A DNA stretch of 64,000 nt from Bacteroidota bacterium (GTDB lineage Bacteria; Bacteroidota; Bacteroidia; B-17B0; Aurantibacillaceae): positions 62,001 through 126,000 of the forward strand of contig JAQZBQ010000002.1 of the NCBI GenBank assembly GCA_029237825.1, in the 5' to 3' direction. Shown here in pieces: positions 50,515 to 53,448 of this stretch. The notes under the pieces are model-generated. The model did not search any database. It saw only the letters and a list, made by a program, of their open reading frames with translations, and was not told where the DNA came from. The position numbers were made by a program, and so were the translations under genes. Position 1 is the stretch's first letter; each line of letters starts with the position of its first letter.

Positions 50515-51774
50515 CTAATTTAGGTTCAGGATCTGTTTCCCATGTTCTTTGCTTTTCACATCTGTAATAATATGGGAAATAATTCCTTTTGGATTGATAA
50601 TAAAGGTGGTGCGGATTATTCCGTCATAAATTCTCCCCATAAATTGTTTGGTTCCCCACACGTCGTAAGCTTTAATGATTGACATATCAGTATCCGCTAT
50701 TAATGAAAATGGTAATTCAAATTTCGATGCGAATTTCAAATGGGTTTTTTCATCATCAGCGCTAACTCCTATTACGGTATAGTTTTTCTTACTAAGAAAT
50801 TGGTGTTCATCCCGTAAGCTACAGGCTTCCAAAGTGCAGGTTGGAGTATTATCTTTCGGATAGAAATAAAGGACCACATTATTTCCTTTCAGTTCTTTTA
50901 AAGAAATCACTTTTCCATTTTGGTCGCGTCCTGAAAATGCAGGGGCCTTATCACCAACTTTTAAAGATGTGGAATGGGCCTGGAATTTCTTTGAAGAAGG
51001 TGTAGGGCGTGGTGATCCCTTTGCTGAAGTTTTAGTCGTTGCTTTCTTTTGAAGTAAGTGCGGGGTTTTATCTGATATCTTTTTATTCATTTGGATGTTA
51101 TTAGCAGTTGATATATTTTTTTCATTAGCGAAGACTAGACTCTTTACATAAAAAAGGCACCACTTTGTTAAGGGACATATTTCGCATTTTGGCGTTCTCG
51201 CAATGCAAACATAGCGTCCATGAAGTATGAGCCAATGGTGAGCTGATGCAATATATTGTTCAGGAATGTGTTTAATAAGCTGCAATTCACTTTGGAGCGG
51301 ATTTTTTGCTTTAGTTAAGCCAAGCCTGTTTGCAACACGGAAAACATGTGTGTCTACTGCCATCGCTGGTTTATCGTATATCACAGAAGCAACCACGTTA
51401 GCAGTTTTTCGGCCAACGCCCGGAAGTTTAACAAGCTGGGTGATATCACTCGGAATTACGCCGCCAAAATCTTTCAAAAGCATATTAGCCATGTTCACAA
51501 GATGCTTAGCTTTATTATTCGGGTAGCTCACGCTTCTGATCAGGCTAAACACAGCATCGGGTGAAGCTTCGGCCAATGTTTCTGCATTAGGGAAGTGTTT
51601 AAATAATTTTGGAGTAACCTGGTTGATGCGTTTATCGGTACATTGAGCAGAAAGAATAACAGCAACAATCAGTTCAAAAGGATTTGAATAGTTCAGTTCA
51701 GTCTCCGCAACAGGTACGTTTTTGATAAAATAATCTATAACGCCGGCATAGCGCTCTTTTAATGTCATAATCAA
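50515..51774 (-). CDS. Endonuclease III - peroxiredoxin (Bcp) fusion
   Basis: 419-residue single frame. Residues 1-~215 are complete endonuclease III: ILSAQCTDK, the HhH LPGVGRKTANVV with the catalytic Lys, the catalytic Asp in VDTHVFRVANRLGL, and a 4Fe-4S cluster C-x6-C-x2-C-x5-C (CIARTPKCEICPLTKWC). A Lys/Ser/Thr-rich linker (~216-272) follows. Residues ~273-419 are a Bcp-type peroxiredoxin with the peroxidatic and resolving Cys in PKDNTPTCTLEAC. These are normally two proteins. An internal ATG at 51090 could start a free 191-residue peroxiredoxin, and a six-A run at 51150-51155 lies at the end of the Nth part, where a one-base indel in either direction would stop Nth at once. Confidence 0.88.
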   Translation of the reverse strand: MIMTLKERYAGVIDYFIKNVPVAETELNYSNPFELIVAVILSAQCTDKRINQVTPKLFKHFPNAETLAEASPDAVFSLIRSVSYPNNKAKHLVNMANMLLKDFGGVIPSDITQLVKLPGVGRKTANVVASVIYDKPAMAVDTHVFRVANRLGLTKAKNPLQSELQLIKHIPEQYIASAHHWLILHGRYVCIARTPKCEICPLTKWCLFYVKSLVFANEKNISTANNIQMNKKISDKTPHLLQKKATTKTSAKGSPRPTPSSKKFQAHSTSLKVGDKAPAFSGRDQNGKVISLKELKGNNVVLYFYPKDNTPTCTLEACSLRDEHQFLSKKNYTVIGVSADDEKTHLKFASKFELPFSLIADTDMSIIKAYDVWGTKQFMGRIYDGIIRTTFIINPKGIISHIITDVKSKEHGKQILNLN

Positions 51775-51862: not shown

Positions 51863-52681
51863 TTAAAATCCGAATACCTTTTTCAATAAATCAGTTACAC
51901 GAGCCATAGGGTCTTTTCTGATTTTAGCTTCTTCTTCTAATATCAAAAGCATTAAACCATTAATGGCTTTGGTGGCCACATAATCATTCAGATCAGGATT
52001 TTGTTTTTTCACGCCAGGTAATTTATTGTAGGCGGTCGCCAAAGGAGTCCAGTAGCTGGTAACTTTAACTTTATTAATAGCTTCTTTCACCACAGGCATA
52101 AACTGTGCTTTTAATGGAGCAAATGTTTTCTCTCGTAAGTAGTGCGTAGCTGCCGAATCAGCTCCATTTAAAATGGCAAAACCATCAGAGATACTCATGC
52201 CTTTAACGGCATCAATAAATACAGGGGCTGCTTTTTTAGCGGCTTCTTCTGCTGCACGGTTCAACGAGGTTTCAAATTCGGTTACTTTTTTTTGCATACC
52301 GAGGCTAATGAGTTTCGAACGCATTTCTTTTGCTTCTGCTGGCCAGGGAATAAACAACTTTGGATTTTTTAAATAACCATCTACTTTGGCAGCTTTCCCG
52401 GATGAGTTATTTGTTCCTACCGTTAACGCTTCCTTTAATGCGCGGATCACTTCATCATTTGTAAGCGAGGGCGCAGCATTGGTTTTACCTCCGCCTAAAA
52501 CCGTTTCGGCCTGGTTAATAACACCAGCAGCGGCAGTGTTTGTCTTTGCAGTTTCTATAATGGTAGTTGAATTTGTTACAGCGGCGTTCTTAGCTGAATT
52601 TAAAACACTCCCCCAGTTCTGTGCATTTGTTATAACTGCTCCGGAGATAAACGTGATTATGTAAATTGCTTTTTGTTTCAT
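51863..52681 (-). CDS. DUF4197 protein, secreted
   Basis: 272 residues: signal peptide without lipobox (cleaved near ITNA), an Ala/Asn/Thr-rich spacer (about 22-75), then one DUF4197 domain (NDEVIRALKEALTVGTNN to the C-terminal DLLKKVFGF). Mostly helical; conserved FETSLNRAAEEAAKKAAP, DGFAILNGADSAATHYLREKT and INKVKVTSYWTPL. Function unknown. Tandem paralogue of 52702-53448, 20 nt downstream of it, on one transcript. Confidence 0.88.
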   Translation of the reverse strand: MKQKAIYIITFISGAVITNAQNWGSVLNSAKNAAVTNSTTIIETAKTNTAAAGVINQAETVLGGGKTNAAPSLTNDEVIRALKEALTVGTNNSSGKAAKVDGYLKNPKLFIPWPAEAKEMRSKLISLGMQKKVTEFETSLNRAAEEAAKKAAPVFIDAVKGMSISDGFAILNGADSAATHYLREKTFAPLKAQFMPVVKEAINKVKVTSYWTPLATAYNKLPGVKKQNPDLNDYVATKAINGLMLLILEEEAKIRKDPMARVTDLLKKVFGF

Positions 52682-52701: not shown

Positions 52702-53448
52702 TTATTTGGCACCAAAAACTTTCTTTAGGATATCTGTTACCCGTGCCGCAGGATCTTTCCTGATTTTTATTTCTTCCTGGGCAATTAAGGTCATTAAACC
52801 ATTGATTGCTCTATCAGTAACATAATTATTCAGATTAGGATTTTGTTTTTGTACTCCCGGAATCTTGTTATAATTTGTAATTAATGGCGACCAATAAGAA
52901 GTAACTTTTACCTTGTTAATTGCGTCGGTAACAGTAGGTAAAAAACGCTCTTTTAATGAAGCGTAGGTCTTTTCACGAAGATAATGAGTAGCAGCGGTAT
53001 CATTTCCATTTAATATCGCAAAACCATCTCCAATTGTCATCTGCGTAATTGCGTTCACGAACACAGGTACTGCATTTTTTGTAGCTTCTTCTGCGGCCCG
53101 GTTTAACGATGTTTCAAAATCGTTTATTTGTGATTGAAATCCGAGTTGCGATAAACGTTCTTTCATTACAATTGCCTCCTGTGGCCACGGAATATAAATA
53201 AGAGGATTTTTATTAAAACCATCAAATTTTGAACTCAGTGCAACAGAATTATTAGTGCCAACAGTCAGTGCTTCTTTTAAGCCTTTAATTACATCGGCGT
53301 TTGATAAAGTTGAGGAAGTTGTATTAGAGGTGGTTGCGTTCAGGATGTCATTTCCCGTTTTAATTATCGCTTCCTGTGTTTTAGGGTCACAACCAGTAAG
53401 ATGTAAAACCAAAGCCGCCAAGGCTGCTAATAAAAAAAAGTGTTTCAT
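52702..53448 (-). CDS. DUF4197 lipoprotein
   Basis: 248 residues: signal peptide with lipobox LTGC, short spacer, and a DUF4197 domain strongly similar to the adjacent paralogue (LKEALTVGTNN, FETSLNRAAEEA, DGFAILNGNDTAATHYLREKT, VTDILKKVFG). The pair thus has one lipid-anchored and one soluble exported copy. Function unknown. Confidence 0.88.
   Translation of the reverse strand: MKHFFLLAALAALVLHLTGCDPKTQEAIIKTGNDILNATTSNTTSSTLSNADVIKGLKEALTVGTNNSVALSSKFDGFNKNPLIYIPWPQEAIVMKERLSQLGFQSQINDFETSLNRAAEEATKNAVPVFVNAITQMTIGDGFAILNGNDTAATHYLREKTYASLKERFLPTVTDAINKVKVTSYWSPLITNYNKIPGVQKQNPNLNNYVTDRAINGLMTLIAQEEIKIRKDPAARVTDILKKVFGAK

Follow-up and report, generated by a model that had tools for sequence, protein, structure and literature searches.

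Endonuclease III fused to a Bcp peroxiredoxin: a conserved gene in a genus of Aurantibacillaceae that most likely makes two proteins

We analysed a stretch of 64,000 nucleotides (hereafter the window) from a member of the Bacteroidota family Aurantibacillaceae (contig JAQZBQ010000002.1 of assembly GCA_029237825.1, positions 62,001 to 126,000), in which a DNA repair gene, nth, runs in one frame into a peroxiredoxin gene, bcp. The locus raises two questions, namely whether this frame is a genuine gene and, if so, what it makes. The stop-free stretch covers 50515..51774 on the minus strand and would encode 419 aa if counted from TTG 51774; ATG 51768 is the better start, because the Nth of relatives begins there. 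The features referred to below are the following, and the six-A run (51150-51155) and the internal ATG (51090-51088) lie where the first-pass annotation of this DNA had put them.

50518..51768, minus strand: the whole Nth-Bcp coding frame, which starts at ATG 51768, encodes 417 aa and ends at a stop codon (50515-50517)
51157..51768, minus strand: endonuclease III core, with HhH (K121, D139) and the C-X6-C-X2-C-X5-C cluster ligands, the last of which is C204
51091..51156, minus strand: 22-codon extension from the last cluster Cys to the internal ATG, open, its sequence diverged in the window's genome
51150..51155, minus strand: six-T run (A6 on the plus strand); the stretch from Cys204 to the ATG is as long here as in 9 of the 15 other fused genomes of the genus
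51088..51090, minus strand: conserved internal ATG, at the site where the stand-alone Bcp of unfused relatives begins; Bcp alone would have 191 aa
50983..51090, minus strand: Lys/Ser/Thr-rich linker, equivalent to the basic N-terminal tail of the family's unfused Bcp and predicted to be disordered
50518..50982, minus strand: Bcp/PrxQ thiol peroxidase core, with C311 and C316 (PRK09437; PDB 3drn, 5enu)

Both halves of the frame score as full-length enzymes. The nth model TIGR01083 (NCBIfam) reaches 242.8 bits (cut-off 211.7) over residues 9-197 of the 419-aa frame, and PRK09437, thioredoxin-dependent thiol peroxidase, reaches 165 bits (cut-off 140) over residues 270-417; the Pfam families HhH-GPD, EndIII_4Fe-2S, and AhpC-TSA are all above cut-off in the fused protein. 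The nearest solved structures by sequence are E. coli Nth (2abk, E 3.1e-50) for the Nth half and the Bcp homologues 3drn and 5enu for the Bcp half. Among the 11 fused proteins that were aligned out of 16 in the genus, K121, D139, and the cluster cysteines C188, C195, C198, and C204 are invariant, as are, in the Bcp half, the presumed peroxidatic and resolving cysteines C311 and C316 and the presumed active-site arginine R386. We take the catalytic roles of all these residues to be those of their counterparts in E. coli Nth and Bcp, and the distance between C311 and C316 (five apart) to be the E. coli Bcp spacing. Judged by equivalog score and residues, the Nth half is a complete endonuclease III, with predicted glycosylase/AP-lyase activity, and the Bcp half a complete Bcp/PrxQ, with predicted peroxidase activity, which bears out the first-pass description of two complete enzymes in one uninterrupted frame. 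The window's genome was found to be without a close second nth or bcp, the next best matches having 34% and 31% identity. Two tandem DUF4197 paralogues (51863-52681 and 52702-53448, both minus strand; Pfam PF13852, 232 and 239 bits) immediately precede the fused gene and share its strand.

Relatives, where the first-pass annotation had proposed to look for the same fusion, do carry it. The locus was recovered at E 1e-50 or better in 17 of 20 genomes of the genus (missing in G002, G008, and G019), and reading the DNA showed nth and bcp in one frame in 16 of these 17, the exception being G006. One of the 16 (G011, locus L025) has a contig that ends inside Bcp; L083, which its length, place and frame suggest to be the L011 contig again, was left out of all fused counts. 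Both genes were read at 42 loci from the family's other genera, and at 40 of these they occupy separate frames, in some cases at contig ends. The two fused loci (G035 and G084) both belong to one sister genus, which gives 18 fused rows overall (16 genus genomes and two of the sister genus). Outside the family, zero fusions were found among 395 sampled genomes of the class (cut-off 1e-90, 109 matching) and 395 of the phylum (cut-off 1e-100, 27 matching), a survey that is not exhaustive because the samples overlap and the cut-offs are strict. Every class row with an open frame of at least 400 aa was read as DNA or was G000, and G000 was also the only exception in the phylum sample to an upper limit of 277 aa for open frames. 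Frames listed at 419-582 aa in G023 and in six class genomes (G270, G170, G116, G390, G418, and G300) were rejected as fusions since stops lie between nth and bcp, and G250 (539 aa listed) was rejected since the stretch read contains no bcp match.

We mapped the fused state on a 71-row tree of both cores that holds 17 of the 18 fused rows, and four changes are needed. The tree was made by a quick method with SH-aLRT support only (26 of 68 inner branches below 80), and rows with partial Nth or Bcp coverage were left out, L025 among the fused. Because G006 is placed inside the fused genus, and because the sister of that genus on the tree, G024, keeps the two genes in frame with only one TAA separating them, we read the four changes as three gains and one reversal: an old genus-wide fusion that was split again in G006, and two fusions in the sister genus. 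At the G006 locus (L026), an apparent reversal of the fusion, the TGA of nth stands four bases before the Bcp ATG.

The divergence of the cores bears on the age of the fusion. Silent differences over both cores amount to 0.65-0.92 per site in 8 of 10 compared pairs, which is near saturation, and to 0.41-0.47 in the close pairs L016/L017 and L011/L012, with replacement differences of 0.01-0.12 in the compared pairs. Each of the other two frames of the stretch from the last Cys to the ATG is interrupted by stops in 17 of the 18 genomes, frame 0 being open by definition. As silent sites of the cores are near-saturated and the alternative frames of the extension carry stops, we take the open joined frame to be kept by selection. 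From the DNA read, the single frame has persisted through the genus, and a ribosome completing Nth must run on into Bcp because the two lie in one frame with no stop between them; the Nth-Bcp fusion is then the expected unprocessed product of the nth start.

Such a frame could in principle be neutral, the nth stop codon having been lost by accident and without benefit, with the two domains working as before on a floppy tether. The gene neighborhood is consistent with this (nth and bcp are adjacent on one strand in other Bacteroidia and overlap in different frames in sister genera), and the re-split G006, where separate Nth and Bcp products are viable, agrees with neutrality and counts against the explanation that we prefer. 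Only one loss was detected in 17 genus genomes, however, despite the near-saturated silent sites in 8 of 10 pairs, and three separate gains are needed on the simplest reading of the tree, so that neutral read-through strikes us as a rather unlikely, though serious, alternative to a fusion maintained for its products.

What joins the two cores in the fusion is the basic tail of Bcp plus an extension of Nth. The linker is hypervariable, and little of it aligns besides the ends adjoining both cores and the ATG. Tails that reach 25 aa in length and 20% in Lys content are present on 38 of 53 unfused Bcps read from the family's other genera and on 0 of 20 Bcps outside the family (L084, L089, and L138 being counted as outside, from the tree); these tail lengths are approximate because the start was taken as the first in-frame Met. 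Up to 195 aa precede the Bcp core within the family, and none of the 20 outside Bcps has 25 aa or more there. Six unfused Bcps (L028, L029, L034, L175, L176, and L177) have very long Lys/Ala-rich tails that resemble histone H1 in composition only. From composition we infer that the Lys-rich tails may bind DNA. In an AlphaFold model, the Nth half is mostly of high confidence, residues 220-278 all stay under a pLDDT of 50 (ten-residue means 27-47), and the Bcp half has a mean pLDDT of 66 (model pTM 0.46). With only two alignment rows to cover the Bcp half, that half is poorly modelled, and the model therefore says nothing on contacts between the domains; its alignment (A4) replaced another (A3) whose Bcp-only rows (21-27% identity) seemed misplaced.

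Within this variable stretch, every one of the 18 fused frames retains an in-frame ATG at the ancestral Bcp start (MAKK...-like). Linkers have hardly any other Met: of the 19 that occur in 1396 linker residues, 18 are the conserved internal ATG and one lies elsewhere. In the re-split G006, the corresponding ATG is the sole ATG of the Bcp frame ahead of the core. We scored start contexts with a model trained on 85 clear starts vs. 624 internal in-frame ATGs, all from the window's genome and hence from one genome (AUC 0.93). In none of the fused genomes does the conserved ATG fall below the 94th percentile of the 624 ordinary in-frame ATGs, and the 19 linker ATGs have a mean score of 4.5, compared with 3.0 for the reference starts. 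The internal ATG of the window, which has C at -3, falls at the 28th percentile of reference starts and at the 94th of internal ATGs. Start-context scores are raised generally because the linker is A-rich: ordinary ATGs average -4.9 but the other linker codons -0.6, and 8% of these codons score at least as high as the linker ATGs do on average. Bacteroidota are without Shine-Dalgarno sequences; PMC6847099 names A at -3, -6, -12, and -13 as positive determinants of starts in Flavobacterium johnsoniae and gives TAHHTTTG as the Bacteroidota -7 element. Of the 18 fused frames, 17 have A at -12 and 13 have A at -3; A at -6 is hardly enriched (39% of linker ATGs vs. 35% of reference starts). The -7 element occurs within 300 nt upstream of the ATG in 3 of 18 genomes (L011, L012, and L023), the window's not among them, and no sigma-70-type promoter was found in L009 1900-2400. 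The same L009 region has four terminator-like sites on the opposite strand, in the A-rich linker, where 0.8 were expected.

The first-pass annotation had suggested ATG 51090 as a start for the peroxiredoxin alone and had offered it as an alternative to a fusion. The first part is probably right, given the conservation of this ATG and its start-like context; as to the second, an ATG that is kept in every fused frame suggests that fusion and internal start both hold. The internal ATG probably also makes a free, Lys-tailed Bcp of 191 aa. The opposite view, that Nth-Bcp is the sole product and the linker Met a relic or an ordinary residue, can appeal to the fairly high start scores that basic, A-rich linkers have regardless, but it leaves unexplained why the ATG was kept without exception through three fusion events (as we read the tree) in a stretch that otherwise aligns poorly, why A stands at -12 in all but one frame, and why silent sites upstream are constrained in 13 genomes. 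We consider it unlikely.

In 13 of the genus's 16 fused genomes, this constraint takes the form of a block of ~30 nt, with a consensus of about ATAAACAAAAAYNNYCCTCATTCGTTATC, inside the extension that precedes the internal ATG (the extension is L009 2116-2181, for example). Over the 22 codons after the last Cys in these genomes, the commonest-codon fraction is 0.87 (13 qualifying codons); the 169 Nth-core codons give 0.64, and none of 157 runs of equal length exceeds 0.73. Once codon usage was allowed for, the ten highest of 394 nine-codon windows along the gene all fell within the Cys-to-ATG stretch (maximum 1.78, with a median of 1.09), followed by a cluster at 1.46 towards the N-terminus of Bcp. 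Pairwise silent differences in the extension are uneven: L014/L015 differ by 0.12 (nth: 0.79), L016/L017 by 0.16 (nth: 0.47), three further pairs by 0.34-0.49 (nth: 0.73-0.79), and L008/L009, where the block of L008 has decayed, by 0.85 (nth: 0.73). The block is not recognisable in the window's genome (L001), L011, and L012, which the silent-site tests did not include, as the extensions of these three could not be aligned with the others; between the window's extension and that of its nearest relative, replacement differences are 0.60.

With up to 2 mismatches, a 25-base pattern of the block matches at the nth-bcp locus in 11 of 20 genomes, and a reversed control pattern gave two matches in all. 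We rejected a repeat element since the block is locus-specific, with one off-locus match only (G009, 2 mismatches). An RNA structure was also rejected: RNAalifold pairs the block with the LTEW codons at a total energy of -2.7 kcal/mol, two-sided change is seen in only 1 of 18 pairs and in another helix than that of the block, and in L013 the partner arm is altered while the block itself is intact. No Rfam match was obtained in the five loci searched. From Cys to ATG the 13 block-bearing genomes span 22 to 38 codons; the block therefore stands at no constant distance from the ATG, and this speaks against a fixed position for ribosome binding. As a guess, the block is a putative control element for free Bcp.

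Separate Nth and Bcp could also come from a fusion that is made and then cleaved in the disordered basic linker. A long, Lys-rich linker with predicted disorder speaks for this, but by eye no peptide site is common to all linkers, and the sequence before the ATG is constrained as nucleotides in the 13 genomes with the block (it is not recognisable in the window's genome), so we hold cleavage to be quite improbable. An error of sequencing or assembly at the six-A run, where a one-base change would halt Nth quickly, is extremely improbable as the link between the two genes, for the fused frame is shared by 15 further genomes of the genus, and the Cys-to-ATG distance of 66 nt in the window's genome recurs in 9 of them (10 of 16 in all), which implies that the run has not shifted the frame. 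The remaining six fused genus genomes have distances of 45, 45, 93, 96, 96, and 114 nt, and all the distances are multiples of three, as a fused frame demands. The first-pass alternative of two adjacent genes artificially joined thus fails.

We therefore return to the reading of a real and conserved fusion gene with, in all likelihood, two protein products, an explanation that we regard as likely on the comparative evidence. In this scenario, nth and bcp would have begun as neighbors on the same strand, the family's Bcp would have acquired a basic N-terminal tail, and the stop codon of nth would then have been lost. If ATG 51090 is still used, one mRNA would yield both the Nth-Bcp fusion and free Bcp. 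The Nth domain and the basic linker might hold the thiol peroxidase on DNA, where it would remove peroxides near the nucleoid and the 4Fe-4S cluster, with free Bcp serving the rest of the cell. A putative peroxide shield for the 4Fe-4S cluster, along the lines of the first-pass annotation, is plausible and fits the fusion. It is possible, and we put it forward tentatively, that the two-product gene is genus-wide, that the ~30-nt element within the coding sequence of the Nth C-terminus sets the balance of free Bcp and DNA-bound fusion, and that repeated fusion after the basic tail had arisen reflects selection for a DNA-held peroxidase.

If the two-product reading is true, a single mRNA supplies a nucleoid-tethered and a free peroxidase. 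The locus would represent a natural, long-kept, and repeatedly evolved link between an iron-sulphur DNA glycosylase and a peroxidase, and would make the role of peroxide removal at DNA in base-excision repair directly testable. It would also be a case of a gene fusion that keeps the downstream start, with the reversal in G006 visible within the same genus.

Compared with known systems, the Nth half is like endonuclease III (TIGR01083; 2abk) in its HhH-GPD family, its catalytic Lys and Asp, and its four-Cys cluster loop, but it has no stop past that loop and runs into a peroxiredoxin. The Bcp half is like Bcp/PrxQ (PRK09437; 3drn, 5enu) in its AhpC/TSA family and in having both Cys, and differs in its Lys-rich N-terminal tail and in being joined to Nth. 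Fusions of peroxiredoxins with other domains exist, e.g., Prx-glutaredoxin hybrids; the partner here is a DNA glycosylase and not a redox partner. In-frame nested genes that give N-terminal proteoforms (cf. PMC11005335) share the single frame, the second start, and the shorter C-terminal product, whereas here two complete neighboring genes would have fused with the downstream start kept, as judged from conservation only. In the open-licence literature (titles, opening abstracts), we found no description of an nth-bcp or Nth-peroxiredoxin fusion. The gene thus appears to be a new architecture built from known parts; it is the architecture and not its components that would be new, because both enzymes and the principle of the internal start are already known.
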